38,087 bases of DNA from Chromatiaceae bacterium (GTDB taxonomy: Bacteria > Pseudomonadota > Gammaproteobacteria > DTRM01). The notes beneath the pieces were generated by a model. It did no database searches. It saw only the letters and a list, made by a program, of their open reading frames with translations, and had not been told where the DNA came from. The DNA is taken from the NCBI GenBank assembly GCA_012965975.1, contig DTRM01000042.1, forward strand, positions 1-38,087, read 5' to 3'. Every line of letters begins with the position of its first letter. Within the stretch, counting starts at the first letter, position 1. The position numbers and the translations under genes are program-made. Positions 5,165-30,141 of this stretch are shown piece by piece.

Positions 5165-5593
5165 TTAATAAGCAAAATCATTACTGAGATCGAACCGATA
5201 CTTGGCGCTGATCGACTGCTTTTCCTGCGGATACTGCCGTTGCAGAAACTCAATCAGATCATCTGCACACATGGTGTGGCAGTCAATGAACCCCTGCACC
5301 TCAACCAGCCCTAGGGTGTCAAAAACGACCTCTCGAGTCTGACCCTTTTTGCAGGAACCGAGATCAAACGACTCGGTTATAGAGTCGCTAAAAATGTTGT
5401 GATAGAACGGGTCGTTATTGGGAAAGCCAACGGATTGTCCTACCTTTATCTGCAGATGCTGCACGCTGAACGCTTTGTTCTTCTGGGATACTTCATGGTC
5501 TGCTGACTAGGCAATGCCGGCTTGTAGACCACCCAATACAATCCAGACCGTAAATTTCTGCGGGAAACGAAGCGATTGAAAAATAATATTCAC
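5165..5593 (-). pseudogene. Periplasmic cupredoxin-like protein interrupted by an in-frame TAG
   Basis: The ORF track gives only 99 aa from a GTG at 5464. Reading further upstream in the same frame gives a GTG at 5593, a hydrophobic signal-like segment FTVWIVLGGLQAGIA, a TAG codon at 5509-5507, and then SADHEVSQKNKAFSVQHLQI, which is the expected first strand of a plastocyanin-like domain (FPNNDPFYHNIFS, FDLGSCKKGQ). The TAG sits just at the expected signal-peptide junction, so the gene is either inactivated by one base change or contains a sequence error. The usual metal-loop C-x2-H-x2-M is replaced by DCHTMCADD, so copper binding is unproven. The ORF from 5464 alone would lack secretion and strand 1. 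Confidence 0.68.
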
Positions 5594-5673: not shown

Positions 5674-6684
5674 CTAAAACCGCTCTAGGCTGTCTACCCG
5701 AATGTGTTCTGCTGCCGCACCCCACTCCACCAACAAGGCCTTTGCGGACTCAATGGCGGCACCGGGCGCAGTCACGTAAAAATCATAGCCAGACAAATCG
5801 GAGTGGTCCTCACGAATTATCCGCATTCGGCGTAGAAAGTCGGCCTCAAGGTCCTCAGGCTCGACGTGCTGGTTGCGCCCCAGCGAGGTATAGATAAACT
5901 CGTCAAATGCATCGGCCCAGGAGCGACAGTAATTATCCATATAGTGGCCATCCTCTTCGCTGGTGATCCAGTAGAGGTGCATGCCCTGATCCCGTTCCAG
6001 TGCTACCGCGTGTTCAATCAAACTCTTGATCGGGCCGAAGCCGATGTCATAGGCAATCATGATGATGGGGCGTTCAGATTCTTCATCCAGAATAAACGAA
6101 CCCCATGGGCCACGAATGTTTAACTTCGATGAAGTTTTCAGTGCCTCAAATATATATTGTGAAAACTCATCGTCCGGATTGTCACGAATATGAAACTGGA
6201 GATGCATGGCATTGCACGGACAACTGGCGACCGACTTGTTGCGCGGCCGAATACCATCGGCCAGCAATGTGACGTGTTGGCCGGCAAGAAAATGCAGGGT
6301 ACTGGATCGTGGCGTGCGCAACTGCAACAACATGATATGCTCGGCAACGCGCTCAATCTTGGTGACCTTGGTTTCAATTTCCTGAACGGGAATATCTTCC
6401 GGTCTGGAATACTCAAACGCCTCGATCACCAGATCGGATGCGGGCTTCGCTCGACATAACAATACGCCCCCAGCCGACTTGTCGGCCTCTGACAACTGAA
6501 AGTCGTGATGTTCAATCGATGCCAACTCGCCTTTTATGATACGTCCCTTGCAGTCACCACAGGATCCGCCGCTGCAACTGTAGTTGAGATTCATACCCGC
6601 CCTGAGTCCGGCCTCCAGCACGGTTTCATGCTCATCAATCTCAAAGTGATGCCCGCTAGGTTGAATGGTCACCGTAAACGGCAT
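5674..6684 (-). CDS. 2Fe-2S ferredoxin / ferredoxin-reductase fusion linked to dsrS
   Basis: The N-terminal domain (about 1-90) is a plant-type 2Fe-2S ferredoxin with CSGGSCGDC and a distal LLC. It is followed by an FAD-binding barrel (about 100-200) and an NAD(P)-binding-like domain (about 205-330). The layout is that of CDP-6-deoxy-glucoseen reductase / phenol hydroxylase reductase components. Two motifs deviate: the FAD motif usually R-x-Y-S reads RNKS, and the pyridine-nucleotide loop usually GGTGFAP reads YDIGFGP. Its ATG overlaps the dsrS stop (TGATG), so it is probably translated with dsrS and is the last gene of the dsr operon. A role in electron transfer to or from the sulfite reductase system is inference from position. 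Confidence 0.85.
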   Translation of the reverse strand: MPFTVTIQPSGHHFEIDEHETVLEAGLRAGMNLNYSCSGGSCGDCKGRIIKGELASIEHHDFQLSEADKSAGGVLLCRAKPASDLVIEAFEYSRPEDIPVQEIETKVTKIERVAEHIMLLQLRTPRSSTLHFLAGQHVTLLADGIRPRNKSVASCPCNAMHLQFHIRDNPDDEFSQYIFEALKTSSKLNIRGPWGSFILDEESERPIIMIAYDIGFGPIKSLIEHAVALERDQGMHLYWITSEEDGHYMDNYCRSWADAFDEFIYTSLGRNQHVEPEDLEADFLRRMRIIREDHSDLSGYDFYVTAPGAAIESAKALLVEWGAAAEHIRVDSLERF

Positions 6685-7831: not shown

Positions 7832-8140
7832 CTACGAACCCTTGGTGTGGGCTGGATCATTGGGGTTGGAAAAAATAAAATGCAATTCGCCTGGCTCAAT
7901 CTCAACAAAGTCGATGACTGTTCCTGCAAGCAAATCCGCTTGCTCACGAGAACAAATAATCATGATGCCTTCGCTCTCATAGCTTTCATCACCCTCAGCC
8001 GCGGCATCGAAACCCATTACGTAATTGAGCGAGCCGTCGTCCTTACGCTCAACCGCAAGGCGTAAGAGCATACCCGCCGAATCACCCTGCTCTGCCGCCT
8101 GTCGAATCTGCTCAGCCGCTGCTTCTGTCGCTGTAATCAT
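7832..8140 (-). CDS. dsrR: DsrR, A-type (IscA-like) protein without cluster cysteines
   Basis: The fold signature of A-type iron-sulfur carriers is clear (MITATEAAAEQIRQA at the start, IEPGELHFIFSNPN near the end). However, the three cysteines that bind clusters in IscA are missing: the C-terminal CGC region reads NPNDPAHTKGS, and the single Cys (IICSRE) is elsewhere. This loss is characteristic of DsrR in A. vinosum, where the protein is thought to act in dsr expression or assembly rather than as a cluster carrier. I chose the ATG at 8140 (102 aa) because it overlaps the dsrN stop as ATGA and has GAGGAG 11 nt upstream; the track's GTG at 8152 abuts that ribosome-binding site. Confidence 0.9.
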   Translation of the reverse strand: MITATEAAAEQIRQAAEQGDSAGMLLRLAVERKDDGSLNYVMGFDAAAEGDESYESEGIMIICSREQADLLAGTVIDFVEIEPGELHFIFSNPNDPAHTKGS

Positions 8141-9516
8141 GCCCGTGTACACTCCTCTACAAATTTCATAAACCGCTCAGCCCAGCAAAACTCACTGACA
8201 CTGCGCAAATGCGTATAACTCGCTAAAACATTCCGGTAAACGATGCCGTCGTGGTGGCCATCGACACCGCTGCCTCGCTGCACCTCATAGGCAAAGCGAA
8301 CGTCAGGCCCAAGATCCTGCAACCTTGAGTAGTGAAACTCATGCGCGAGAATCGTGTGCTCGCAATCGTCGCTCCCCACACACCACGGATGCTCCCCGGT
8401 CGGTTTTACTCGAGCATAGCCACGCCCCTGTGGCTTTTCCTCCATGATGACATCGGCCTGCAGTGCCCCCACCATACGGCTGGTACGCCCGTCAGACTGA
8501 ATTGACCGGGCAAGATACATCAAACCACCGCACTCGGCGTAGACTGGCATATCCGCTTCGATCGCAGCAAGGATCTGCCGCCGCATGGACTCATTGGCCT
8601 CCAATACAGACAGATGGGTCTCGGGGAATCCTCCACCAATAAACAACGCATCCACCTCCGGCAAATCAGAATCTCTTAACGGACTGAATGGGAGTAATTT
8701 TGCGCCGCAAGCCAGCAATGCCTCTAGATCGTCAGGATAATAGAATCCAAACGCATCGTCCTGAGCGATGCCAATGCGTAGTGGTCGCGATGCGGTATAG
8801 GCCGGTACCCGCTCTGCTACCGAGGCGATGCTGCCAGCGCTTTCACAGATCAACTGAACCGCGTCGAGATCAACCTGGTCGGCGATCAGCGAACCAATGT
8901 CAGCGATCTTCGCATCCGCGAGATCAGTTTCATTGCTTGGCATAAGTCCAAGATGTCTTTCAACAATCTCGAGCTTGGGGTCAACATGGACAGCGCCGAG
9001 TACGGGAACATCGGTGTAGTGCTCGATGACCGCTCTGAGTTTGGCCTCATGGCGACTGCCGCCTAGGCGATTGAGAATCACACCTCCGATTCGTATTTTT
9101 TTATCGAATGCCTGATAACCAAGGATCAGAGGCGCGACGCCACGGGTCATACCACGCGAATCAATCACCAGAATCACCGGTGCATCCAGCAGATGCGCCA
9201 AAGCCGCATTACTGTTACTGCCATCAAGATCGAGGCCATCATACAAGCCCTTGTTGCCTTCGATAATGGCGATATCCGACTCGGCGACCCGCCCGCCAAA
9301 GCCCTGCTGAATCGCCTGTTCTGACATGGTATAGAAATCGAGATTGAAACAACTTCGACCTGCGGCCCGTGACAACCATAGTGGATCAATGTAGTCAGGC
9401 CCTTTCTTGAACGGTTGTACCTTGAGGCCTCGCTGCGCGAATGCCGCGCACAAGCCGATGCTGATCGTAGTCTTACCAGAAGACTTGTGAGCGGCGGAAA
9501 TCAGACAGTGCGGCAT
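8137..9516 (-). CDS. dsrN: DsrN, siroheme (glutamine-dependent) amidase
   Basis: DsrN resembles cobyrinic acid a,c-diamide synthase (CobB/CbiA) and amidates siroheme to the siroamide prosthetic group used by sulfite reductase. The N-terminal ATP-binding domain begins MPHCLISAAHKSSGKTTISI with the CobB-type P-loop, and the C-terminal glutamine amidotransferase domain carries the nucleophile in AECGGLMYL after FIGGGFPE. The length of 459 aa is normal for the family. It is placed between dsrP and dsrR; its stop overlaps dsrR. A 210-bp spacer with two REP-like hairpins separates it from dsrP, so its transcript level may differ from that of upstream genes. Confidence 0.93.
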   Translation of the reverse strand: MPHCLISAAHKSSGKTTISIGLCAAFAQRGLKVQPFKKGPDYIDPLWLSRAAGRSCFNLDFYTMSEQAIQQGFGGRVAESDIAIIEGNKGLYDGLDLDGSNSNAALAHLLDAPVILVIDSRGMTRGVAPLILGYQAFDKKIRIGGVILNRLGGSRHEAKLRAVIEHYTDVPVLGAVHVDPKLEIVERHLGLMPSNETDLADAKIADIGSLIADQVDLDAVQLICESAGSIASVAERVPAYTASRPLRIGIAQDDAFGFYYPDDLEALLACGAKLLPFSPLRDSDLPEVDALFIGGGFPETHLSVLEANESMRRQILAAIEADMPVYAECGGLMYLARSIQSDGRTSRMVGALQADVIMEEKPQGRGYARVKPTGEHPWCVGSDDCEHTILAHEFHYSRLQDLGPDVRFAYEVQRGSGVDGHHDGIVYRNVLASYTHLRSVSEFCWAERFMKFVEECTRA

Positions 9517-9576
9517 AATCAGTCACCAAACGATACGGGGGCGAACCTGATTTGAGTAGGAACTTGATCACTACAT

Positions 9577-9611
9577 CCCTTCTCCCTGCGGGAGAAGGCC
9601 AGGATGAGGGA
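9577..9611 (-). repeat. REP-like repeat, copy 3 (inverted partner)
   Basis: CTTCTCCCTGCGGGAGAAGG is a perfect hairpin followed by CCAGGATGAGGG. It is in the opposite orientation to copy 4 about 30 nt away, giving a paired REP/BIME-like arrangement in the dsrP-dsrN gap. Confidence 0.65.
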
Positions 9612-9639
9612 ATATAAAATCATGATGTTAACCTTACAA

Positions 9640-9676
9640 CCCCCTCACCCTAATCCTCTCCCTGAGGGAGAGGGAA
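9640..9676 (+). repeat. REP-like repeat, copy 4
   Basis: This is the best-preserved copy: CCCTCACCCTAATCCTCTCC followed by CTGAGGGAGAGGG. The inner CTCTCCCTGAGGGAGAG is a hairpin. With copy 3 it could form strong RNA structures in the dsr transcript between dsrP and dsrN. Confidence 0.65.
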
Positions 9677-9726
9677 TTTATTTCTGCTAGTAGTGGGCGA
9701 GAAAGCCAGAATAAAGGCGACCCTGT

Positions 9727-10938
9727 TTAGCTGACGCTGGCGTCGACAACCTCATCCGATAGCGACTCGGGTAAGAAAGGCAACACCTTGGCCGCCACCG
9801 CAACAACGGCGGCCGACACTGCCACACCGCCGATACCCAACAAGATTTCAGGCAAGGAAGGAGTATAGCTACCCACCACGCCGTCAAAAAAGCTGCTTTC
9901 AATGATCTCTTTGTCAGGGAAGATTGGAAGTGGAAAGGCCTGGCCCCCAATCACGATGACATAAATCGTCGCCATACCGCCGGCGATCACCATCGCACAC
10001 GCGATTCCGATCCACTGCCGTGACTTACCCAAGGTCGGGTGATACACAACGGCTAGCGGCAATAACCCGCCCACCAGAATCGTGCCCGCCCAAAACAGGA
10101 AGGTGTAAATACCACCGTCAACCAAAATAAACCGCTCAACCGCATGATGCTCGGTCGCGTAGAGATTAGTCACATGCTGCACAATGACAAAGTAGAGAAC
10201 AGCGGCAACAAATACACCCAGAAGACTCTTCAGGCGCAATAACACCGCATCGCCAAGCGGACGATCCGTCCAGTTAAAACTCGCCATCAGCGTCAAAATA
10301 TAAATGGCCAGACCAAAGCTGAAAGACATGATGATAAACATCGGCGCCATGATCGCCGCATCATAACCCTGACGGGCAACCAAAAAGCCGAAGATGGAGC
10401 CAGTACCTGTGGTCAGCATCAAACGCCAAATAAAGGCAGCCGTTCCCGCCGCCTTCTTAAAGACATGCATTTTGTGTTCCATCATGGTCCAGATGTACAC
10501 AGCCACGATGCCGACAAAACCTGAATACAGAATGATATTCCAGGCGAAAATCGACTTGAAGTTATAGTAAGTCATCGCGATGATCAGACGATCAGGCCGA
10601 CCTAGATCCAGCAACAATACCATCAGCCCACCGATCAACAACGCAATCGCGAGCAGCGCCGACAGGCGCGCTAATGGGTCGTACATTTTACGCCCGAAAA
10701 CCGATGAAATGGACGCGACATTCAGCGCGCCCGAAGCGGCAACAATCAGGAAGATCGCAAATACGTGAGGCATACCCCAAACAATCTGATTGGTCATCCC
10801 GGTCACCCAGTGGCCGTTATGCTCCATATAATAGGCAGCGCCCATTCCCAGCATGATGACCGCAATCAAACCGGCCATCAGTTTGTAAAAACCGGGGCTT
10901 GGGCCCATCAGCGAGCGATAATGAGTTTGTGTTGCCAT
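9727..10938 (-). CDS. dsrP: DsrP, NrfD-like membrane quinone-interacting subunit
   Basis: DsrP is the integral membrane subunit (403 aa, about ten hydrophobic helices) of the DsrMKJOP transmembrane complex. It belongs to the NrfD/PsrC family, which exchanges electrons with the quinone pool and lacks hemes. Segments such as LMAGLIAVIMLGMGAAYYME and the repeated long hydrophobic stretches support this. It starts 3 nt after the dsrO stop, consistent with a tightly coupled dsrJ-dsrO-dsrP block. No anomalies were seen. Confidence 0.94.
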   Translation of the reverse strand: MATQTHYRSLMGPSPGFYKLMAGLIAVIMLGMGAAYYMEHNGHWVTGMTNQIVWGMPHVFAIFLIVAASGALNVASISSVFGRKMYDPLARLSALLAIALLIGGLMVLLLDLGRPDRLIIAMTYYNFKSIFAWNIILYSGFVGIVAVYIWTMMEHKMHVFKKAAGTAAFIWRLMLTTGTGSIFGFLVARQGYDAAIMAPMFIIMSFSFGLAIYILTLMASFNWTDRPLGDAVLLRLKSLLGVFVAAVLYFVIVQHVTNLYATEHHAVERFILVDGGIYTFLFWAGTILVGGLLPLAVVYHPTLGKSRQWIGIACAMVIAGGMATIYVIVIGGQAFPLPIFPDKEIIESSFFDGVVGSYTPSLPEILLGIGGVAVSAAVVAVAAKVLPFLPESLSDEVVDASVS

Positions 10939-10941
10939 AAC

Positions 10942-11697
10942 TTATAGCCCCTTGTAGCGCACGCCGGTGTTCAAACCCAGATCGGCACGCAACTGGCGCG
11001 TCGGGCTTGCCCGCAACTGACGCGAGATATCACTGTTGGGATCTTTCAGATCACCAATAATAATGGCGTGATGGCCTTCTGCCGCACAGGCTTCGGAACA
11101 AGCCGTCGAGCCATCACCCGCATCCAGCTTATGCACACACAGAGTGCAGGATTCAACGCACCCCTTGCCACGAGGCTGATGGGTCACCTGATTTTCCAAT
11201 ACTTCATGCACGAACGAACGAGCCTTGTACGGGCACGCCATCATGCAGTAGCGACAACCAATACAGGTATGACGATCGACTAGAACAATACCGTCTGCAC
11301 GTCGCATCGATGCGCCTGTTGGACAGACATCCACACAAGGGGCGGTTTCGCAGTGTTGGCACATGAGTGGCAGCGTATCGATATGACCGGTTGCCTTGTC
11401 CTTGATCGTAACTTTCCGTATCCACTGAGCATCCGTTTCGGGGCGTCCAAGATCTTCCAGTCCATGCTCATCATTACAGGCATCGACGCAGGCCTTGCAG
11501 CCATCGGCACATTTGGATGCATCGACCAACATGCCCCAGCGATTGTCAGAACTAGCAGGTTCGTCCAGTGCCTTGGCCTGTGCGCTGCCACTGGCGAGTA
11601 ACGAGGTTAGCGGTACGGTAGCTACCGCAGCGGTTGCCACACCCGCCTGACCAAGAAAGCGGCGACGGTATTGATTGATGTTGGCTTCAACACTCAT
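10942..11697 (-). CDS. dsrO: DsrO, Tat-exported ferredoxin-like iron-sulfur protein
   Basis: DsrO is the periplasmic iron-sulfur subunit of DsrMKJOP, related to NrfC/PsrB-type polyferredoxins. The N-terminus YRRRFLGQAGVATAAVA is a twin-arginine signal. Cysteine clusters follow: CADGCKACVDAC, CQHCETAPCVDVCP, CIGCRYCMMACP, and CVESCTLCVH with a distal ACSEAC, enough for three or four [4Fe-4S] centres. The start overlaps the dsrJ stop as ATGA. It is expected to pass electrons between DsrJ and the DsrP/quinone site. Confidence 0.95.
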   Translation of the reverse strand: MSVEANINQYRRRFLGQAGVATAAVATVPLTSLLASGSAQAKALDEPASSDNRWGMLVDASKCADGCKACVDACNDEHGLEDLGRPETDAQWIRKVTIKDKATGHIDTLPLMCQHCETAPCVDVCPTGASMRRADGIVLVDRHTCIGCRYCMMACPYKARSFVHEVLENQVTHQPRGKGCVESCTLCVHKLDAGDGSTACSEACAAEGHHAIIIGDLKDPNSDISRQLRASPTRQLRADLGLNTGVRYKGL

Positions 11698-12209
11698 TGC
11701 TGTTCACCCATGGTTTCCCACAACGCGAAGGATGAGTTCACCCCTTCAGGCGTCATTTTGTTTGCGTGATCACCGTGATACTGCTTCATCTGTGATGTTC
11801 CCAGCTTATGTCGATGCTTTGGCTCGCGTGGAACCGCGGCATGACACTGGAAACAATCAATACTGACCGAGGCAAAATTATGGCACGACTGACAAAACTG
11901 GCCATCACCATTAATGTTGGCCAACTCACCCGCATCATCCTTCTTTACGTGACACGCAACACACTCCGCAAGGCTATGCTGCTTGGTACGCACACCCTCG
12001 CGCAGTGTTATGTCACGCTGATGGAACAAGTACTCCATGTGATTTTTTCGCATGTCGGCAGTGGGCTCTACACAAGCCTCCTCGGTATAAGCCTTGGATC
12101 CGATCAAATGCTCGCGAGCGTCGTCAGCAAGCACCGTACCTACATTGACGAGCAGTAACCCGACAAATAGTCCACCGACAAGCTGACGGAAAGATCCCGC
12201 AAAACTCAT
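11694..12209 (-). CDS. dsrJ: DsrJ, periplasmic triheme cytochrome c
   Basis: This 171-aa protein has an N-terminal hydrophobic signal/anchor (LVGGLFVGLLLVNVGTVLA) and exactly three c-heme motifs, CVACH, CQSCH and CFQCH. A conserved-looking cysteine upstream (EEACVEPTADM) corresponds in position to the Cys proposed as an unusual axial heme ligand in A. vinosum DsrJ; that correspondence is from memory. It is the triheme subunit of DsrMKJOP facing the periplasm. It begins 9 nt after dsrL and overlaps dsrO. Confidence 0.95.
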   Translation of the reverse strand: MSFAGSFRQLVGGLFVGLLLVNVGTVLADDAREHLIGSKAYTEEACVEPTADMRKNHMEYLFHQRDITLREGVRTKQHSLAECVACHVKKDDAGELANINGDGQFCQSCHNFASVSIDCFQCHAAVPREPKHRHKLGTSQMKQYHGDHANKMTPEGVNSSFALWETMGEQQ

Positions 12210-12218
12210 AGAGATTCC

Positions 12219-14189
12219 TTATTCACCCAGACCCATCTTAATGTAACCCGTTGGGCACACTTCAGAACAGATATGGCAACCGATGCAACGATCATAATCA
12301 GTATCGACATATCGACCGGTTGTCTTGGCGTCCTTCTTAACACGGAAAACCGCATCTTGAGGACAGAAAATAACGCAGTTGTCACACTCAAAACACATGC
12401 CACAACTCATACAGCGGCCGGCTTCGGCCTGCGCATTCTCAGTCTCCAGACACAAAACACGTTCCTGGAAATGTCCGAGCACTTCTTCAGACGTCGGCAC
12501 AACCTCTTCGCGTCGCAGACGAGGTTCGTACCCAAAGTGGCCGAGAAACAATTCATCTGATGGAATAATTTCGTGCGCTGAGCGATCTTCGTAGTTATGA
12601 ACCGCGCGGTTATCCGTATTAGTACCACGACGAGCATCTTCTGTTGAATGCTCACCGGCGGGATCAAAGCCATCAGGTGACAAATCGACTTCTTTCAATT
12701 TATCCAACAGATCGAAGTGATGCACATCAACCTTGGGACGACGCGCATGTTCAGCGCCCGACATATACTCATGGATGGTTTCGGCAACGACCGATGCCTG
12801 ACCAATGGCAGTAGTCAACAAGTGTGGACGGATGATATCGCCACAGACGAAATGCCCTTCCTTACCCGGTACTTGGTAGTACTTATCAGCGTCAATCAGG
12901 CCGCGACCATTATCGAAGCCGTCCAAGCCCTCAAGATCGCCACCCTGACCAATCGCAGAAACGATCAGATCCGCCTCGAGATCAAACTCAGAACCCTCAA
13001 CCGGAGTGGGACGGCCATCAACCATCTCACACCTGGCCATACGCAAAGCGGTGGCACGACCGTTTTCATCCTGCACAACCAATACGGGCATCACGCCATC
13101 GAGAATGGTCACACCCTCCGTTAGCGCATCACTAACCTCATGCTCAGCAGCGGTCATGTCAGCTTTTGGAAACAAAGAAGTCAGGGTAACATCAGCACCT
13201 TCTCGTGCCGCCGTGTGTGCCGCATCGTGTGCAACATAACCATGAACAACCAATTCAGGGCGATCCTTAGGATTGATGTGCTCGATATGACCCAAACGAC
13301 GCGCAACAGAGACCACATCAATCGAGGTATCGCCACCACCCACACACACTACGCGATTGGCGGTGACGTGCAGACGACCTTGGTTAAACGCTTCCAGGAA
13401 GGCAACGCCGCTAACGCAATTCTCCGCATCAGAACCGGGACAAGGCAATGGCCGGCCAGACTTACAGCCTAGCGCCCACAAAACCGCATCATATTCTTCT
13501 TCGACGCTTTCCAGACTGACATCTTTACCCACACGCGTATTCAACTTGACGTCAATATCACCCATATCGATGATGCGCTGGATTTCATGGTCAAGAAAGT
13601 CTCGCGGGGTACGATAGCCTGGGATGCCATAACGCATCATGCCACCGAGTTCTTCATGATCATCAAAAATCGTGCTCGCATGACCCATACGACGCAACTG
13701 ATAGGCCGCAGCCATACCGGCAGGACCGCCACCGATGATGGCGACGCGCTTACCGGAAACAGGTGGTGGCGCCGGAAATTTATAACCCTTCTCCTTGGCG
13801 TTATCACCAATGAACTGCTCAACGGCATTAATACCGACGAAGTCTTCTACTTCGTTACGGTTACAGCCATCTTCACAGGGCGCTGGACACACGCGGCCCA
13901 TCTGCGATGGAAAAGGGTTGGCGTCGGTTGAACGCAGAAATGCATACTCCTGCCAGTCCATACCCTCTGGAGCTGGCTCCATCCCGCGCACGATACCCAG
14001 CCAGCCACGAATATCCTCACCGGATGGACAGCTGCCCTGGCAAGGTGGTGTCTTGTGAACATACGTCGGGCACTTGTGCGACGTATCCTCGACAAAAATC
14101 ATGTCGTGCATACTGCCCCATTCGTAATCGCCGTCATCATACTTGCGAAACGTTAACTTGGTACCGATCTCATCAGTAGGAGTGGACAT
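12219..14189 (-). CDS. dsrL: DsrL, iron-sulfur flavoprotein NAD(P)H oxidoreductase
   Basis: DsrL is the cytoplasmic oxidoreductase that couples DsrAB-dependent sulfur oxidation to NAD(P)+ reduction and is essential in A. vinosum. An N-terminal Cys-rich segment (CPAPCEDGCNRNE) resembles GltD. An FAD site IIGGGPAGMAAA lies near residue 153, a second nucleotide site VCVGGGDTSID near residue 285, and a C-terminal ferredoxin module carries CMSCGMCFECDNC and CIGCHICSEVCPTG. The length (656 aa) fits DsrL of sulfur oxidisers. AAGGAG lies 7-8 nt before the ATG. It is between dsrK and dsrJ, as in A. vinosum. Confidence 0.95.
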   Translation of the reverse strand: MSTPTDEIGTKLTFRKYDDGDYEWGSMHDMIFVEDTSHKCPTYVHKTPPCQGSCPSGEDIRGWLGIVRGMEPAPEGMDWQEYAFLRSTDANPFPSQMGRVCPAPCEDGCNRNEVEDFVGINAVEQFIGDNAKEKGYKFPAPPPVSGKRVAIIGGGPAGMAAAYQLRRMGHASTIFDDHEELGGMMRYGIPGYRTPRDFLDHEIQRIIDMGDIDVKLNTRVGKDVSLESVEEEYDAVLWALGCKSGRPLPCPGSDAENCVSGVAFLEAFNQGRLHVTANRVVCVGGGDTSIDVVSVARRLGHIEHINPKDRPELVVHGYVAHDAAHTAAREGADVTLTSLFPKADMTAAEHEVSDALTEGVTILDGVMPVLVVQDENGRATALRMARCEMVDGRPTPVEGSEFDLEADLIVSAIGQGGDLEGLDGFDNGRGLIDADKYYQVPGKEGHFVCGDIIRPHLLTTAIGQASVVAETIHEYMSGAEHARRPKVDVHHFDLLDKLKEVDLSPDGFDPAGEHSTEDARRGTNTDNRAVHNYEDRSAHEIIPSDELFLGHFGYEPRLRREEVVPTSEEVLGHFQERVLCLETENAQAEAGRCMSCGMCFECDNCVIFCPQDAVFRVKKDAKTTGRYVDTDYDRCIGCHICSEVCPTGYIKMGLGE

Positions 14190-14236
14190 CGTCTGTCTCC
14201 TTGCATTTATATTACAAAATTAATCCGAAAATCTGC

Positions 14237-15778
14237 TTATGCTGCGTCTTCCGCCGCTTCATCATCGTCGTCGACTATCTGGCCCGTCAGAATGATGGCG
14301 TTACTAAGAACTTGATGCAGACTCATAATCATATCCATCTCCATACCGTAGTAAGGGAGGACTTTGGCGAACTGGCTCTTACAAATAGCGCAGATCGCAA
14401 CCAAATTGGTAACACCGTACTCATCAACCACGTCTTGAAGAGCCTGCGCTCGTGGCACCATACCCTTGACGCGAATTTCCATCAGGTCATCGGTCAATAA
14501 GCCACCCCCACCGCCACAACAGAACGTGTGCTCGTGGATGGTTTCAGGCGCCATGTCGTGGAAATTATTACAGACAGCCTTGAGAATATCGCGAGGAATG
14601 GTGAACTGACCACCCGGCATATCACCCATTCTCGAGGCGCGGGCAACATTACAGGAATCGTGAAAGGTGATCACCAAATCATCATTACGCGACTTATCAA
14701 ACGTCAACTTGTCGTCCTGAATCAGATTGTGCGTAAACTCACAAATATGTTGCGGTATGGGATAGTTCTGATCAAGGAAGTCCCACGGACCCGCAAGCGT
14801 ATTCAAAAAGCTGTACGCGACGCGCCAAGCGTGTCCACACTCACCAAAAATAATTCGCTTAACGCCCAGATCCAGCGCCGCTTCGCGAATACGAATCGCA
14901 ACACGCTGCATGTTTTCGTAACTACCGATAAACATGCCAAAGTTCGCTGCTTCCGACGCGTGAGAACTCACGGTCCAACTCACGCCTGCCTCATGAAAGA
15001 CCTTGGCATAACCCATCAAACCATCCACATGGGGTTCGGCAAAGAAATCCGCGGACGGGGTAACCAGCAGAATATCGGCACCCTTAACATCTAACGGTAC
15101 CTTAACCGCAATGCCAGTCTCATCTTCAAGATCCTCTTCAAGACCTTCCAAGGTATCCGCCAACGCGCGTTCTGGCAGACCCAGATTATTACCAATCTTG
15201 TAAACCTTGCCGATAATTTCGTTGCAATACTTCTGGCCGAAACCAATGTGATCGAGAACTTCTCGTGCCGCCATTGAAATCTCAGCGGTATCAATGCCGT
15301 AAGGGCAATAAACCGAACAACGGCGACACTGGGAACACTGGTGAAAATAGGAATACCATTCCTTGATCACATCTTCGGTCAGATCGACCGCACCAACCAG
15401 TTTGGGGAAATACTTGCCAGCGAATGTGAAATAACGCCGATACACCGCGCGGAACAAATCCTGGCGAGCAACCGGCATATTCTTGGGATCACCTGTACCC
15501 AGAAAATAGTGGCACTTATCGGTACAGGCACCGCATTTTACGCATGAATCAAGAAACACCTGCAGCGAACGATACTTGCCCAGAAGCTCGCCCATCTTCT
15601 CGATGGCCTTCTCTTTCCAGCCTTCCTGAAACTCACCATTACCGCCTGGAAAGTCGAGCTGCACCTGAAACTTTTCGGCCGCAACGTAGGGCGAACTGTG
15701 CGCCATCGTGCCTTCGACCACGACCGGGATCTCAGGATACTTCTTAAGCTTAGGTATTTCGAAATCGACCTTGGCCAT
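14237..15778 (-). CDS. dsrK: DsrK, HdrD-like catalytic iron-sulfur subunit
   Basis: DsrK is the cytoplasm-facing subunit of DsrMKJOP and is related to heterodisulfide reductase HdrD. Two [4Fe-4S] motifs, CVKCGACTDKC and CSQCRRCSVYCP, lie in the N-terminal third. The C-terminal part has CCG-type elements (HDSCNVARAS and TFCCGGGGGLL) that hold the noncubane/special cluster thought to act on the DsrC trisulfide. It is 513 aa and starts 2 nt after dsrM. The acidic C-terminal tail (DDDDEAAEDAA) is typical of the family. Confidence 0.95.
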   Translation of the reverse strand: MAKVDFEIPKLKKYPEIPVVVEGTMAHSSPYVAAEKFQVQLDFPGGNGEFQEGWKEKAIEKMGELLGKYRSLQVFLDSCVKCGACTDKCHYFLGTGDPKNMPVARQDLFRAVYRRYFTFAGKYFPKLVGAVDLTEDVIKEWYSYFHQCSQCRRCSVYCPYGIDTAEISMAAREVLDHIGFGQKYCNEIIGKVYKIGNNLGLPERALADTLEGLEEDLEDETGIAVKVPLDVKGADILLVTPSADFFAEPHVDGLMGYAKVFHEAGVSWTVSSHASEAANFGMFIGSYENMQRVAIRIREAALDLGVKRIIFGECGHAWRVAYSFLNTLAGPWDFLDQNYPIPQHICEFTHNLIQDDKLTFDKSRNDDLVITFHDSCNVARASRMGDMPGGQFTIPRDILKAVCNNFHDMAPETIHEHTFCCGGGGGLLTDDLMEIRVKGMVPRAQALQDVVDEYGVTNLVAICAICKSQFAKVLPYYGMEMDMIMSLHQVLSNAIILTGQIVDDDDEAAEDAA

Positions 15779-15780
15779 CG

Positions 15781-16563
15781 TTATTGTCCTTCAGCGCTGT
15801 CGCGACTGCCGCGAGTATCGTCGTACTTGGCGGCCCAGGCAGCCAGATGACGCTTCTCGCGAGGGTTATCAACCTGGTTGCGAGTTGGGCTAAAAAATAT
15901 ACCCACTGCGTGTAGCAACTTGCTATAGGGAAATAAGGCCATCAGTACAGCCACCAGGCCCAAATGAATGAGTAAGGGTAAATCAACTGGCAGTTCACCC
16001 GGACTCAAACTCATCAAACCCAAGGTGAATTCCTTTAACTGAACAATGTCTGTGTGAAGGATAAATGACATGATGAGACCCGACGCCGCGATCCCCATTA
16101 GCCAAAACAACCAAATGAAATCCGACGGTGCGGATATGTAACGCACTCGATCAACCGCAAAGCGGCGCACCAGCAATCCGCCAAGCCCCGCAAGCATTGC
16201 AAAACCCGCGTACAGCCCAAATGGTTGTACCAAGCCGACCAACGGCCAAACCAATGGCGCCCAGAACCACTCTGGGTTAATGAAATAACGCAGGTGGCGC
16301 AACAGAACCAGAAACATACCAAAATGGAACATCCAGCCAAAGAGCCAGGTCCACAAGGTTGCCTTGAACAGGCTTTCAAAAAATACAACTTCACGAAACA
16401 GGCGCAACGCCACGCCAGTCCGCGTGACCGGTGCTGGTGTCGTAGGAATCTTGAGCGGTGCTGGTGTCTTAATATAAAGACGAATCCGGTAGGCAAGACC
16501 AGCCACCAGCGAAAACGTCGCCACATAAAACAGCAGAGCAAAAAAGATCGTCAGAAACGACAT
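15781..16563 (-). CDS. dsrM: DsrM, NarI-like membrane cytochrome b
   Basis: This 260-aa membrane protein shows five to six hydrophobic helices and the NarI-like arrangement (FHFGMFLVLLRHLRY and LLIHLGLVAVLMALFPYSKLLH), with histidines placed as heme b ligands. DsrM forms the quinone-reactive membrane pair with DsrK. It has an upstream GGAGG about 14-15 nt before the ATG. A hairpin in the 78-nt dsrC-dsrM spacer may lower its expression relative to dsrC. Confidence 0.94.
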   Translation of the reverse strand: MSFLTIFFALLFYVATFSLVAGLAYRIRLYIKTPAPLKIPTTPAPVTRTGVALRLFREVVFFESLFKATLWTWLFGWMFHFGMFLVLLRHLRYFINPEWFWAPLVWPLVGLVQPFGLYAGFAMLAGLGGLLVRRFAVDRVRYISAPSDFIWLFWLMGIAASGLIMSFILHTDIVQLKEFTLGLMSLSPGELPVDLPLLIHLGLVAVLMALFPYSKLLHAVGIFFSPTRNQVDNPREKRHLAAWAAKYDDTRGSRDSAEGQ

Positions 16564-16600
16564 GTTCCTGAGGGCCTCCGTAAAGTAGTTAAATAAATAA

Positions 16601-16625
16601 GGGGGCAGCTTTTACGCTAACCCCC
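16601..16625 (-). terminator. Hairpin between dsrC and dsrM (possible partial terminator or processing site)
   Basis: On the transcribed (minus) strand GGGGGTTAGC, a GTAAAA loop and GCTGCCCCC can pair, followed by TTATTTATTTAA. The T-run is imperfect, so leaky termination or 3'-end protection of the dsrC message is more likely than full termination. Confidence 0.5.
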
Positions 16626-16641
16626 TCACTCGTCGTCTAAA

Positions 16642-16974
16642 TTAGACGCAGCCAGTCGGCTTTGGAAGCCCCGCATATTTACAGGCCTGCTTCGCAGGAC
16701 CGTAAGGGAACAATTCGTACAGGTACTTGCTGTTGCCCTTGTCCTTACCTAGCTTCTTACCGATAGCCTTGGTCAGAACGCGAACGGCTGGAGCAATCTG
16801 GTACTCTTCGTAGTACTCACGCAGGAAGTTAATCACTTCCCAGTGGGTCTCAGTCAGTTCGGCATCATCAATAGCCGCCATTACGGTCGCTACTTCAGGC
16901 TCCCACTGATTCAGATCAGCCAGATAACCTTCTTCATCAGTCTCAATGGACTTTCCATTTACTTCGATAGGCAT
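16642..16974 (-). CDS. dsrC: DsrC, sulfur-carrier substrate protein
   Basis: DsrC (110 aa) carries sulfur to DsrAB and is released as a trisulfide handled by DsrMKJOP. The C-terminal arm is complete: ACKYAGLPKPTGCV with the two redox cysteines at about residues 98 and 109, ten residues apart, the second being penultimate. This distinguishes a true DsrC from TusE/RspA relatives that lack the first Cys. GAGGAG lies 7-8 nt before the ATG. Flanking genes are dsrH upstream and dsrM downstream. Confidence 0.97.
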   Translation of the reverse strand: MPIEVNGKSIETDEEGYLADLNQWEPEVATVMAAIDDAELTETHWEVINFLREYYEEYQIAPAVRVLTKAIGKKLGKDKGNSKYLYELFPYGPAKQACKYAGLPKPTGCV

Positions 16975-17019
16975 GTTGTGTCTCCTCGACGCTATATATT
17001 AATTTATGTGTGGTGACTG

Positions 17020-17325
17020 TTAAAGCCAGGACTGTACGACGTCATGCTCTGCGGCAAGTTCGACAAAACCCGTGTAATCGACGATCTTGACGCCATCAAT
17101 CACATCCTCATCAGTCATTCCTCGTGCATTCAGGTCTGGACCCAATACATAGACGCCAATATCGCCAATAGCATTGGAAACAACCGATTCGTTTGCGGCA
17201 CCCTTAAGCGCGGCAAATACCCCATCCTCTATCAGCAGGACGCTGCTACCCTTCTTCGCATGGCCCATGCACTGGGCAAATGAATTACGTTCGAAAGGTG
17301 ATTTGTTTACGGTATGCAGTAACAT
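17020..17325 (-). CDS. dsrH: DsrH, sulfurtransferase complex subunit
   Basis: DsrH is the smallest subunit (101 aa) of the DsrE2F2H2 hexamer, homologous to TusB. It keeps the characteristic cysteine near residue 19 (NSFAQCMGHAKKG) and the downstream SSVLLIEDGVFAA strand. AGGAG lies about 9 nt upstream of the ATG. It follows dsrF by 11 nt. Confidence 0.95.
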   Translation of the reverse strand: MLLHTVNKSPFERNSFAQCMGHAKKGSSVLLIEDGVFAALKGAANESVVSNAIGDIGVYVLGPDLNARGMTDEDVIDGVKIVDYTGFVELAAEHDVVQSWL

Positions 17326-17336
17326 TGCTTGATCTC

Positions 17337-17732
17337 CTAGAAACTCAGTACGACTTCGGCGTCTTCCATCAGGTCAGCCATCGCAGCATTGTCGATCACT
17401 TCAACATCAACAATCAGATCTTCGGTCGTTAAACCGCGCTCATCCATTGATTCCTTGGAAACGAACAGCTTTTCGACGTCATACATTTCAAGCGCACGAT
17501 AGGTGGGTGAAAAATTCTTCATACCCATACCATCGGTGTTCTGCCCTTTTTTGAGCTGATAAACACCATCATCCATAAACGCAAGACTGACATCCTGCTC
17601 AAATGCCGCACCGATCAAAACCACTTCAAGTGATTCCAGCGCATAGACAGTGCCGTAAGGCCCACGACGGTTAACGTACAAGAACTTCTTGCCGTTCATT
17701 TCGCCATCTTCTTCGTAATCTTCTTCAGACAT
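17337..17732 (-). CDS. dsrF: DsrF, sulfurtransferase complex subunit
   Basis: DsrF (131 aa) is homologous to TusC and forms the heterohexamer with DsrE and DsrH. The sequence FLYVNRRGPYGTVYALESLE and the later ALEMYDVEKLFVSKESM follow the DsrE/F fold. No cysteine is present in the active-site position, which is normal for the non-catalytic subunit in this complex. The N-terminus is acidic (MSEEDYEEDGEM). Confidence 0.94.
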   Translation of the reverse strand: MSEEDYEEDGEMNGKKFLYVNRRGPYGTVYALESLEVVLIGAAFEQDVSLAFMDDGVYQLKKGQNTDGMGMKNFSPTYRALEMYDVEKLFVSKESMDERGLTTEDLIVDVEVIDNAAMADLMEDAEVVLSF

Positions 17733-17746
17733 GAGATACCTTTAAA

Positions 17747-18139
17747 TTAGTCGCCGAAAACCAGCAGACGATCACTTTCGATACCGGCTTCGATCAACTG
17801 ACCAAGACCCGAAATGCGAAAACCTTCTGCAAGATTGTCTGCGTCTTTACCATTACGTTTGGACTCATCTGCATCGCAGATGCCACGTCGCTGGGCAGCC
17901 GCCACGCAAATCACCAGATCAACATTGTGATCTGCAGCCAGTTCGCTCCAGCGTTTGACGATATTACGATCGTCTTGGGGCGGCGTGGTCAAACGGGTGC
18001 CGTTGTTGACACCATCATGGTAGAAAAAGATGCGAAAGATCTCATGACCGGCATCAATTGCGGCCTTGGCAAAGTTATATGCCGAATCCGCAGCTTGGTG
18101 CTGGTATGGTCCTTCGTTAACTTGAATACCGAATTTCAT
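17747..18139 (-). CDS. dsrE: DsrE, sulfurtransferase subunit with sulfur-binding cysteine
   Basis: DsrE (130 aa) is homologous to TusD and donates sulfur towards DsrC. Cys78 (LVICVAAAQ) matches the position of the essential sulfur-binding Cys of A. vinosum DsrE; Cys88 (RGICDAD) is also present. The start MKFGIQVNEGPYQHQAADSA is typical. It lies 11 nt downstream of dsrB. The ribosome-binding site is weak (AAAGGGTC). Confidence 0.95.
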   Translation of the reverse strand: MKFGIQVNEGPYQHQAADSAYNFAKAAIDAGHEIFRIFFYHDGVNNGTRLTTPPQDDRNIVKRWSELAADHNVDLVICVAAAQRRGICDADESKRNGKDADNLAEGFRISGLGQLIEAGIESDRLLVFGD

Positions 18140-18150
18140 ATTCTGACCCT

Positions 18151-19224
18151 TTAGAAACGAATGTGCGTAGAGCTGTTGAGGCTCTGACGAGCACCACGCC
18201 AGTTATCAATGTGATACTTGGTAAATGGCAACGCGGTCAGCTCGAAGAAACGCGGCCAACCGATACGGTCGATCCAGTCGTTCATACGCTCCCAATCCCG
18301 CGCATCTTCCTTGTAGCATTTCAGAATCGTCTTCACGATTGCAGTAGCTTCAGGCCAGCGAGGTGGATTATTCGGGATGCCAGCCGCAACCAGTTTCTGG
18401 AAACTAGGCTTGCTGCGGGCGTTGGAGTGATTACCACCCACCCAAATAGCTAGCTTCGAGTGAACCGGATCATTAATCGCCATTGGCGGACAAGGTGGGA
18501 AACAAGCGCCACAACAAATGCACTTTTTCTCATCAACTTCCAGTGAAGGCTTGCCGTTAACCATAGCGGGACGAATCGCCGCAACCGGGCAACGCGCCAC
18601 AACAGAAGGTCGCTCACAGACATTAGACACCAGATCGTGGTTGATCTTCGGTGGCTTGGTGTGCTGAACGTTAATCGCGATGTCGCCCTGACCACCACAG
18701 TTAATCTGACAACAAGAGGTCGTGATGTGCACGCGGTTAGGCATGTTGCACTCTTTGAACTCGTCAATCAGCTCGTCCATCATCGACTTCACAACACCGG
18801 ATGCATCCGTACCGGGGATGTCGCAATGCAACCAACCCTGAGTGTGAGACAGCATAGCCACGGAGTTCTTGGTACCACCAACGATGAAACCAGCTTCCTC
18901 GATCGCATCAATTAGCGGCTGCACCTTGGCTTCATCGGCAACCAAATACTCCACGTTAGAGCGAATGGTGAAATGGATGTAACCATCGGCAAACTCATCA
19001 CCAATGTCACACAACTTGGTTAGTGTGTAGTGATCCAGAATTCGCTGGGTGCCACAACGCACAGTCCAAAGCTCATCACCACTGTAGGCAACATGAAGCA
19101 GCACGCCTGGACGTGGATGCTCGTGGTATTTCCACTGACCGAAGTTACGCAAGCTGACAGGATGCATGTACTGCATGCCATCCGGACACCCGCTTTCGAT
19201 GGGGGCTCTATGTTCAATTGCCAT
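18151..19224 (-). CDS. dsrB: DsrB, dissimilatory sulfite reductase beta subunit
   Basis: DsrB (357 aa) pairs with DsrA in the alpha2beta2 siroamide sulfite reductase, working here in the oxidative direction. Siroheme/[4Fe-4S] ligand regions are visible as TTSCCQINCGGQGD and NVCERPSVVARCPVAAI, and an inserted ferredoxin domain carries KKCICCGACFPPCPPM. GGAGG lies 8 nt before the ATG. The 111-nt spacer from dsrA contains a hairpin. Confidence 0.97.
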   Translation of the reverse strand: MAIEHRAPIESGCPDGMQYMHPVSLRNFGQWKYHEHPRPGVLLHVAYSGDELWTVRCGTQRILDHYTLTKLCDIGDEFADGYIHFTIRSNVEYLVADEAKVQPLIDAIEEAGFIVGGTKNSVAMLSHTQGWLHCDIPGTDASGVVKSMMDELIDEFKECNMPNRVHITTSCCQINCGGQGDIAINVQHTKPPKINHDLVSNVCERPSVVARCPVAAIRPAMVNGKPSLEVDEKKCICCGACFPPCPPMAINDPVHSKLAIWVGGNHSNARSKPSFQKLVAAGIPNNPPRWPEATAIVKTILKCYKEDARDWERMNDWIDRIGWPRFFELTALPFTKYHIDNWRGARQSLNSSTHIRF

Positions 19225-19265
19225 TCGTTATTCCTCCAAGACTTTTAAGCCAAAGGTTTACTGCA

Positions 19266-19287
19266 CCTCGGCCTAAAACGGCCAAGG
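19266..19287 (-). other. Hairpin in the dsrA-dsrB spacer
   Basis: The minus strand reads CCTTGGCC, loop GTTTTA, GGCCGAGG: an 8-bp stem with one G-U pair and no T-run. It lies between stop and start of two subunits needed in equal amounts, so an RNA-processing or stabilising role is more plausible than termination. Confidence 0.45.
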
Positions 19288-19335
19288 CACAATGTTTTTC
19301 TAGTGTCGGTTATTGATTCCGGTTTAGCAGACTAA

Positions 19336-20589
19336 CTAGCTAGCCTGATTATCAAACCACTTTTCAGCTTCTTCATCCCAACCATCCATACGGACGTAGG
19401 AACACTGACGCGGACTGTTAACCATGTTGGGATCAACCTCGATACCAATTCCCTCAAGGAAATTAGCCAGACCGATACGCTCAATCATCTCACCGCAACG
19501 CTCGTGCTCCAAGCCATTCTCAGCCCAGAAATCGATGGTCTCTTCAGCGATTTCAACAATGCGCTCGTAGTCTTCTTCGGTTTCCATCTTCAGGAACGGA
19601 ATGATGACGGTACCCATCAGATCACCGATCTTCAGAGTACGCTTACCACCCATCAACAGGGTAACGCCGTGATCCGTACCCGGATGCAATGCCTTTGGCA
19701 TCACGTTCAGGCAATGCATGCAACGCACGCAGTTACGGTTATCAACGGCGATGGTGTCGTCGTCATTCAGAGACAAGGACTGTGTTGGACAGCGAGTAAT
19801 CACATTATCAATCACATACTGACGACCCTTTTTGGCAACGAAAGCTTTCACTTCTTCGTCGTCAACCTGCATGTCATCACGCCAAGTACCAATCACCGCA
19901 AAGTCAGAACGCTCAATCGCATTCTGACAATCGTTTGGACAACCTGAAACCTTGAACTTGAACTTGTATGGCAGTGCCGGACGATGGACATCGTCGGTGA
20001 AGTTGTTCACTAGCTTGAGGTGCATCTTGTGCTCGTTGGTGCAAGACATCTCGCAACGCGCCGCACCGATACACGACATCGCGGTACGTACACAAGGACC
20101 CGCGCCACCCAGATCAAAACCGTACTCGTTGATCTCATCGAAAAAGTGCTGAGTGCCTTCGGTCGTGGTACCGATAAACATGATGTTACCGGTCTGACCG
20201 TGAAAGGTAACCATGCCAGAGCCATGATCTTCCCAGCTCTTGCCGAGCTGACGCAACATCGCAGTGGTGTAGTGGTTACCAGCCGGTGGCTGTACACGGA
20301 TGGTGTGAAATTCTTTTGACTCAGGAAATGCCTTACCGACTTCAGAAAAACGGGGGATGATACCGCCGCCATAACCAAAGACACTGACCGTGCCGCCCTT
20401 CCAGTAGCCCTTGCGGGTTTCGTAGGAGTGTTCCAACTGACCCAGCATCGAGTTGATAGTCTCGTTGATGCGCTGACTGGGAAATTCATCACGCATACGT
20501 TTGAAACCCGTGATGAAACTCGGCCATGGACCTTCTTCAAGCACATCCAGCATCGGGGTTGGATGGATTTTATCTTTATCTACCGCCAT
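19336..20589 (-). CDS. dsrA: DsrA, dissimilatory sulfite reductase alpha subunit
   Basis: DsrA (417 aa) holds the catalytic siroheme-[4Fe-4S] centre. The ligand motifs are CIGAARC (C-x5-C) and SGCPNDCQNA (C-x3-C), and a ferredoxin insertion shows RNCVRCMHCLNVMPKALHPG. AGGAG lies 7-8 nt upstream of the ATG. It is the first gene of the operon, with a 481-nt non-coding region before it. Association with dsrEFH and dsrL shows it is the oxidative type rather than that of a sulfate reducer. Confidence 0.97.
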   Translation of the reverse strand: MAVDKDKIHPTPMLDVLEEGPWPSFITGFKRMRDEFPSQRINETINSMLGQLEHSYETRKGYWKGGTVSVFGYGGGIIPRFSEVGKAFPESKEFHTIRVQPPAGNHYTTAMLRQLGKSWEDHGSGMVTFHGQTGNIMFIGTTTEGTQHFFDEINEYGFDLGGAGPCVRTAMSCIGAARCEMSCTNEHKMHLKLVNNFTDDVHRPALPYKFKFKVSGCPNDCQNAIERSDFAVIGTWRDDMQVDDEEVKAFVAKKGRQYVIDNVITRCPTQSLSLNDDDTIAVDNRNCVRCMHCLNVMPKALHPGTDHGVTLLMGGKRTLKIGDLMGTVIIPFLKMETEEDYERIVEIAEETIDFWAENGLEHERCGEMIERIGLANFLEGIGIEVDPNMVNSPRQCSYVRMDGWDEEAEKWFDNQAS

Positions 20590-22892: not shown

Positions 22893-23582
22893 ATGCATTG
22901 GAGTGATAAAAAGGCTGATAAAACATATGAGGTGCCCGATGACATCATTGACTTGTCGTTTAGTATTCGCTGCAAACATCTTCCGTTGGAACATGCTTAC
23001 AGCTTTACTCAAGCCGTTATGCGCGCGTTACCGTGGATTGAAAACGAACCGGACTGCGGCATTCATCTGATCCACGGCGCGGGCTCATCCAATGGCTGGA
23101 TACGCCCTGAGAACCCCGACACCGAACTACTGCATCTGTCGCATCGCACGCGCATGGCGATTCGCATCCCCAAGGGGCGCATTGACGACGCCAATAAACT
23201 CACCGGGAAAATATTGGATATTGACGGACACGAACTCACCGTCGGCGACAGCAAAATCAAGTCGCTTTCCAAGCTGGATACGATCTTCACCCGCTATCTG
23301 GTCACCGATCCGGGACTTGATGAAGCGGCCTTTGTCGAAAAGGTGATAAAAAGCCTGGAGGCAATGGATATTCCCGTGTACAAAATCCTGTGCGGTCTGT
23401 CCCATAATCTAAAAACACCGAATGGCCCGGTACACACGCGCAGCGTAATGCTGGCTGAACTTACCGCACAACAGTCTGTGTTGTTGCAACAACGAGGTCT
23501 GGGACCTCTCCGAACCATGGGCTGCGGTCTGTTCATCGCGCACAAAGGTATTGCCGCAGTAAAAGAGGCCAGCGAAAAATGA
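22893..23582 (+). CDS. Cas6/Cmx6-like protein (RAMP fold) without a CRISPR locus
   Basis: The 229-aa protein resembles the family named Cas6/Cmx6 from type I-MYXAN CRISPR systems. It starts with VPDDIIDLSFSIRCKHLPLE followed by IHLIHGAGSSNGW, and ends with the glycine-rich loop GLGPLRTMGCGLFIAHKG, the signature of Cas6 RAMP proteins. Canonical Cas6 proteins cleave CRISPR repeat RNA; His residues in SHNLKTPNGPVHTRS are candidates for function. No repeats or other cas genes occur in the window, so a CRISPR role is doubtful. It is placed between a helical protein and a rhodanese; its stop overlaps the rhodanese start. The family assignment is from remembered sequence pattern. Confidence 0.78.
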   Translation: MHWSDKKADKTYEVPDDIIDLSFSIRCKHLPLEHAYSFTQAVMRALPWIENEPDCGIHLIHGAGSSNGWIRPENPDTELLHLSHRTRMAIRIPKGRIDDANKLTGKILDIDGHELTVGDSKIKSLSKLDTIFTRYLVTDPGLDEAAFVEKVIKSLEAMDIPVYKILCGLSHNLKTPNGPVHTRSVMLAELTAQQSVLLQQRGLGPLRTMGCGLFIAHKGIAAVKEASEK

Positions 23583-26318: not shown

Positions 26319-26927
26319 TCAGGCAAACACCACCCAGGTCGTCGCGATATACTTCACACCCTTTTCCAGGGTCGCGCCGCGATGTTCATGGGTCCAGAAC
26401 GGCGGGAATAAAATCAGCTTGCCACGCTCTGGCTGGACGCTAATGTCCTGCAATAAAAACTCTGTCTCACCACCCGGACCCGGCACATCGTTCAGATACC
26501 ACAGCGCCACCAGCTGACGCTGGCTAAACGAATGACTGCCACCGTCGATGTGCCAATGGTAAAACTGACCGGGATCGGTACGCTGAATGGCATAGCCCAT
26601 ATCCTTAAACGAACCCTTGAAATAGGGATAGGCTTCACGAAACTCCAGAATCGCCTGCCCCATTGACTGAAACAGCGCACGATCAATATCCTTCCAGTCA
26701 TCTTTGCCGCTCAACGCAATATCCGTGGACTGCTTGATCGACTGGTCCTTGTTTTGCAGTTGACCAACCAAACCTTGGTACTGCTGATCCTGCTTTTGCT
26801 CAAAACGACGGATCATTTCCTCACACAGGTCCGCTGGCAAGGCCTGTTGTTTTTCAAACACAAACGAGTTTTCCTTGATCTCCTTGATCGTCGAGAGCTG
26901 AGATTGTGGTGATGCCTGTTTGCTCAT
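26319..26927 (-). CDS. 2OG-Fe(II) oxygenase (prolyl-4-hydroxylase-like)
   Basis: The protein (202 aa from the chosen start) has the iron site YHWHIDGGSHSF, then LVALWYLNDVPGPGGETEF and the distal FWTHEHRGATLEKGVKY, the pattern of prolyl-hydroxylase-like oxygenases. The substrate could be a protein or a small molecule. The track begins at 27023, but the ATG at 26927 (MSKQASPQSQ) overlaps the upstream stop as ATGA, and the preceding residues are a shadow of the neighbouring gene. It is translationally coupled to the gene at 26924-27973. Confidence 0.88.
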   Translation of the reverse strand: MSKQASPQSQLSTIKEIKENSFVFEKQQALPADLCEEMIRRFEQKQDQQYQGLVGQLQNKDQSIKQSTDIALSGKDDWKDIDRALFQSMGQAILEFREAYPYFKGSFKDMGYAIQRTDPGQFYHWHIDGGSHSFSQRQLVALWYLNDVPGPGGETEFLLQDISVQPERGKLILFPPFWTHEHRGATLEKGVKYIATTWVVFA

Positions 26928-27973: not shown

Positions 27974-28029
27974 TTCCTAGTAAACTACTCTGGTATTAGA
28001 GCCTAACACATCAGTTATGGAGTACGGTT

Positions 28030-30132: not shown

Positions 30133-30141
30133 AACCCATCG

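Follow-up and report, generated by a model that had tools for sequence, protein, structure and literature searches.

Our analysis of a 38,087-nucleotide stretch of DNA, hereafter the window, revealed that the last gene of its dsr operon encodes a member of an undescribed, Dsr-restricted branch of a known superfamily, which we term the SCPC family. The protein carries a plant-type 2Fe-2S ferredoxin domain on a reductase fold in which the catalytic motifs have been replaced. The family is present in at least 70 genomes, and our literature searches found no description of it. As a leading but finely balanced reading, we propose that the SCPC protein acts as a Dsr-dedicated [2Fe-2S] sensor of redox or sulfur state, a pseudo-reductase working with a helix-turn-helix (HTH) protein.

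The gene in the window and its altered motifs

The window carries a complete dsrABEFHCMKLJOPNRS operon in the same gene order as that of A. vinosum, with the SCPC gene at its end:

5674 to 6684, minus strand: SCPC-family protein gene, plant-type 2Fe-2S ferredoxin plus degenerate FAD/NAD reductase domains, 336 amino acids
6684 to 7817, minus strand: dsrS, its stop codon sharing one base with the SCPC gene start codon (TGATG)
7832 to 20589, minus strand: remaining dsr operon (dsrR, N, P, O, J, L, K, M, C, H, F, E, B, A)

The open reading frame is intact and starts with ATG (6684–6682), which overlaps the dsrS stop codon TGA (6686–6684) by a single base, as the original prediction had described. 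A promoter and terminator scan around the SCPC gene yielded no more signals than shuffled sequences. Within the protein, the following features were located:

6442 to 6672, minus strand: Fer2 domain, residues 5–81; cluster cysteines 37, 42, 45 and 77, kept in 79 of 79 family members
6094 to 6372, minus strand: FAD_binding_6-like domain, residues 105–197
6232 to 6243, minus strand: RNKS, replacing R-x-Y-S, residues 148–151
6214 to 6225, minus strand: SCPC family signature, residues 154–157; N-x-P-x here in canonical paralogs
6031 to 6051, minus strand: YDIGFGP, replacing GGTGFAP, residues 212–218
5917 to 5943, minus strand: YMDNYCRSW, residues 248–256, the family-specific Y-x-x-N-x-x-R-x-W motif
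5752 to 5772, minus strand: TAPGAAI, residues 305–311, where the canonical GPPxM motif of the NAD(P) site is gone

The combination of a plant-type 2Fe-2S domain with a reductase fold, inferred earlier from the sequence, is borne out by Pfam matches above the cut-offs for Fer2 (4e-14) and FAD_binding_6 (5e-10), and both altered motifs named at that stage, RNKS and YDIGFGP, lie at the residues given above. The strongest signature, SCPC, is close to RNKS and had gone unmentioned. An AlphaFold model shows a confident three-domain fold (pLDDT 94.9), whose closest PDB matches by Foldseek are GcoB, BenC and T4moF. NAD_binding_1 (PF00175) scores only 13.4 bits (E = 0.13) against a cut-off of 22, and together with the loss of motifs this supports the earlier suggestion that the protein would not use NAD(P)H in the normal way.

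Reductases of the BenC/MmoC/T4moF/GcoB type, within the FNR superfamily, share the domain order and fold of the SCPC protein and provide its best PDB and NCBIfam matches. The window protein has their 2Fe-2S pattern (CxxxxCxxC plus C) and lacks R-x-[YF]-S, GGTGxAP and GPPxM; its NCBIfam scores fall far below the equivalog cut-offs (135 versus 430–500), and no oxygenase partner lies near the SCPC gene. By contrast, a canonical paralog from the same genome (G000:C142), of equal length and domain content and about 35% identical, retains every catalytic motif (R-R-A-F-S, GGGTGFAP and SGPPPM) and matches NAD_binding_1 at 75.8 bits. Motifs and Pfam results rule out an ordinary reductase for the window protein. 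A sequencing error or pseudogene is excluded by the intact reading frame, the high-confidence fold and the motifs shared across the family.

One may still consider a flavin reductase that is active despite its divergent motifs, binding flavin and possibly NAD(P)H in another mode and serving, for example, a monooxygenase or Fe-S maturation. The preserved fold would suit such an enzyme, as would the retention of the R and S of RxYS in the RNKS clade and the FAD_binding_6 matches in 31 of 44 short members. We regard it as very improbable, given the acidic residue in the pyrophosphate loop, the missing GPPxM, the exchange of the flavin-site aromatic for lysine and the failure to detect NAD_binding_1 in the window protein.

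Several other genes in the window deserve mention. A small open reading frame at 5165–5464 resembles the C-terminal part of a cupredoxin/plastocyanin-like protein, had no match in a Pfam search and may be a remnant. An apparently lone Cas6-family protein (PF09559, E = 1e-60) is encoded near the dsr operon at 22893–23582, and a homolog with 33% identity to it lies between dsrB and dsrC in genome G596 (locus L229). A DUF6866 protein and a divergent 189-amino-acid protein without a Pfam match (26924–28599) recur as a pair beside SCPC or dsrS genes (L096/L120, L102/L126, L188 and L229). A MoxR-type AAA ATPase is paired with a DUF2201 VWA/metallopeptidase protein at 29089–31437; since a homolog of the VWA gene adjoins dsrS in about 13 of 29 inspected dsrS loci, frequently accompanied by MoxR, the pair looks like an unrecognized accessory module of the Dsr system that might serve DsrAB maturation.

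A separate family almost confined to genomes with Dsr

Homologs were drawn from 56 relatives and then from 369 genomes of the class and 299 of the phylum. They split into a canonical set, with all motifs kept, and the SCPC set, and the branch between them has 100/100 support. The window protein displays each mark of the latter: [S/N/C]-C-P-C (here SCPC), an acidic/aromatic replacement of the GG pair (here YD), the Y-x-x-N-x-x-R-x-W motif (here YMDNYCRSW) and a host with oxidative Dsr.

Column statistics were calculated from 79 aligned SCPC sequences and 14 canonical homologs. S154-C155-P156-C157 is present in all 79, and seven further sequences carry N/C-CPC or SCPT. A complete RxYS occurs in none of 88 family sequences, with R148 in 31 and an aromatic residue at position 150 in 25 of the 79. 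In GGTG, the first glycine is lost, usually to Y, W or F, and the second has become D or E in 61 of 79; the C-terminal PPxM is lost across the family. The family-specific motif, in its fuller form Y248-x-x-N-x-C-R-[SA]-W-x-D-A, is conserved at Y (79/79), N (76/79), R (78/79) and W (74/79). For the two altered motifs, the loss of GG and of a complete RxYS holds across the family, with RNKS itself or RSKS recurring in 17 of 56 short homologs; neither change is due to chance or to a sequencing error. Flavin binding is possible, as some fused members (described below) retain the flavin-site aromatic residue and 20 of the 44 short members match NAD_binding_1. The change is one of re-purposing rather than decay.

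Within the class, dsrS was found in 104 and dsrB in 118 of 369 genomes. One or both genes occur in 68 of 70 SCPC carriers and in 58 of 299 non-carriers (Fisher 3e-36), figures that include among the carriers genome G067, later found to hold a fused copy (67/69 versus 59/300 before), and that come from a loose first-look genome search in which SCPC status was given only to the best matches retrieved and some genomes are incomplete. The association persists with one genome per family (30/31 carriers versus 27/125 non-carriers, p = 3e-15) and in the phylum sample, where dsrB is present in five of five carriers, the window genome among them, and in 45 of 294 non-carriers (p = 1e-4). In two carriers, G092 (about 90% complete) and G177 (72% complete), neither dsrB nor dsrS was found; same-family relatives of these genomes have dsrB (G213, G035) or dsrS (G284, G035). 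The canonical paralog clade (R-x-[FY]-S, GGTG, GPPPM) also occurs in genomes in which no dsr gene was found. The link to the Dsr system that the original prediction proposed is well supported by this distribution. It is one-way, with 38 genomes possessing dsrS and dsrB and no detected SCPC copy (39 before G067 was counted), so the SCPC protein is accessory.

The main rival to a sensor is a one-electron carrier of the rDsr pathway, in which the ferredoxin would shuttle electrons, independently of NAD(P)H, between DsrAB, DsrMKJOP or DsrL and another partner, the reductase domains serving only as a docking scaffold. An invariant 2Fe-2S site, a lost NAD site and the Dsr-restricted distribution are all in keeping with such a role, as are gene positions next to dsrL (G594) and within the dsr operon (the window, G015, G042 and G182). 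We nevertheless consider it unlikely. The 38 genomes without a copy argue against an essential carrier, a published study already names NAD+ with DsrL as the likely acceptor in vivo (PMC7596348), and the HTH partner described below would be left unexplained. DsrL itself, also an electron-transfer-type protein linked to rDsr, is encoded in the window operon (12219–14189). It belongs to the GltD-like NAD(P)H oxidoreductases, contains 4Fe-4S clusters and has an unrelated fold; the window protein lacks such a domain and has other Pfam domains.

Gene neighborhoods and the HTH partner

The SCPC gene adjoins dsrS in six genomes only (G000, the window genome, and G015, G042, G182, G289 and G246). The coupling to dsrS asserted at the outset is therefore real in the window, is a minority arrangement and is ruled out as a general rule. 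In other genomes the gene lies beside dsrAB (G310), or a fused copy stands beside dsrL (G594), upstream of MoxR–VWA and then dsrS (G620) or inside a dsrB–Cas6–dsrC locus (G596). The remaining genomes have an SCPC gene unlinked to dsr. A rough binomial estimate for 10 linked cases of about 90 gives p between 3e-6 and 9e-4, according to the span assumed. Of the combination that had been named as counter-evidence, homologs away from dsr loci and with standard motifs, only the first half was found: most homologs do lie away from dsr, yet they keep the altered motifs, and the proteins with canonical motifs form a clade apart. Betaproteobacterial homologs (Sulfuricella and others) are flanked by argG/yajQ/DJ-1 on one side and a GMP-synthase-like gene on the other; the surrounding DNA examined contained no dsr gene. 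GGDEF neighbors at 16 SCPC loci are probably background. A family of small Cys-containing proteins is encoded near or beside SCPC genes in seven loci (for example, L146 4233–4628, L047 10892–11299 and L161 3005–3454); a Pfam search with the L146 protein gave no match.

A DsrC/TusE-like gene adjoins the SCPC gene in L041, L155, L156 and L160 and is found in a fifth SCPC locus, L120. This arrangement, with the family-wide conservation of the CxC pair, raises the idea that the SCPC cysteines take or relay persulfide from DsrC/TusE-like carriers, the cluster providing redox control. Such a role in sulfur handling seems rather improbable to us, as the linkage is confined to a few related lineages, Cys157 is replaced by threonine in one member (L108) and the protein has no rhodanese or DsrE feature.

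About half of the SCPC members bear an N-terminal excisionase/MerR-like HTH and a coiled coil. This fused form, of about 490–550 amino acids (HTH, long coiled coil, Fer2, pseudo-reductase), occurs in 32 genomes, or 33 with G067. Pfam matches of the HTH (HTH_17, HTH_psq, Fis) all fall below the cut-offs, and the excisionase model matches it in two members. AlphaFold modeling of the fused form gives pLDDT values of about 85–92 over most of the HTH and 79–88 in the coil, with a strand–helix–helix–strand–helix topology followed by two long helices.

In eight genomes (G335, G116, G207, G124, G084, G239, G300 and G263), a separate HTH gene lies directly upstream of a short SCPC gene. Stand-alone HTH homologs were found in 20 of 37 genomes with only short SCPC genes, the search finding none in the other 17, and in 9 of 38 dsr-containing genomes without an SCPC gene (10 of 39 with G067 still included); the HTH family was found in none of 42 genomes without dsr genes. 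The homolog in the window genome (G000 C107:8495–8932) is distant (63.7 bits), unlinked to the SCPC gene and adjacent to dusA, and a fused HTH–SCPC gene also lies near dusA in G048. The simplest reading of these gene arrangements is that SCPC and HTH proteins would work together. The original prediction envisaged an additional electron-transfer partner of Dsr that would complement DsrL. A sensor or regulator is suggested at least as strongly by the HTH domains fused to SCPC proteins or encoded beside them.

A proposed sensor on a retired reductase scaffold

SoxR is a sensor composed of a MerR-type HTH, a coiled coil and a [2Fe-2S] cluster. The layout of fused SCPC members is analogous, with the differences that their cluster sits in a plant-type ferredoxin fold, that they contain a large pseudo-reductase part and that the window protein has no HTH on the same polypeptide. 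By this analogy, the loss of the NAD(P)H site, the retention of the cluster and the gain of an HTH partner would suit a SoxR-like sensor more than they would a reductase.

We propose the following model. A retired BenC/Fre-type reductase scaffold, its overall fold kept, would carry the [2Fe-2S] ferredoxin; NAD(P)H binding would be gone and the flavin site altered or lost. The invariant SCPC site and the conserved acidic residue in the former pyrophosphate loop would have taken the place of the catalytic motifs. In the likeliest version, the cluster, the SCPC cysteines or both would respond to the redox state of the Dsr pathway or to its sulfur (persulfide) state, and the signal would pass to the excisionase/MerR-like HTH–coiled-coil protein, whether fused, encoded directly upstream or, as in the window genome, encoded elsewhere. 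We infer this regulatory function, and with it the cofactors actually bound, DNA binding, and the signal and target of the SCPC/HTH pair. Counting against the model are the sub-threshold HTH scores, the missing HTH in the window protein, the distant and unlinked homolog in its genome, the short-only genomes in which no HTH homolog was found, the dsr-containing genomes that have an HTH and no SCPC gene, and the signs of possible flavin binding in some members. It is conceivable, if somewhat doubtful, that the family represents an undescribed class of redox- or persulfide-sensing Dsr regulator, a fused or split two-gene system with a SoxR-like layout, whose sensor would be a plant-type ferredoxin joined to an inactive BenC-type reductase that bears the invariant Cys-Pro-Cys site.

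In A. vinosum, mutation of dsrS reportedly alters Dsr protein levels. The SCPC family bears on how cells activate the dsr operon to oxidize stored sulfur, and on the roles of DsrR and DsrS. DsrR, encoded just upstream of dsrS, reportedly participates in the regulation of sulfur oxidation (PMC11406059) and A. vinosum dsrS has its own promoter (PMC3368242), so regulatory genes are plausibly located at the dsrR/dsrS end. Automated labeling of the SCPC protein as a ferredoxin reductase would mislead; the family is a candidate, concrete enough to be tested, for sensing redox or sulfur state or for carrying electrons without NAD(P)H.
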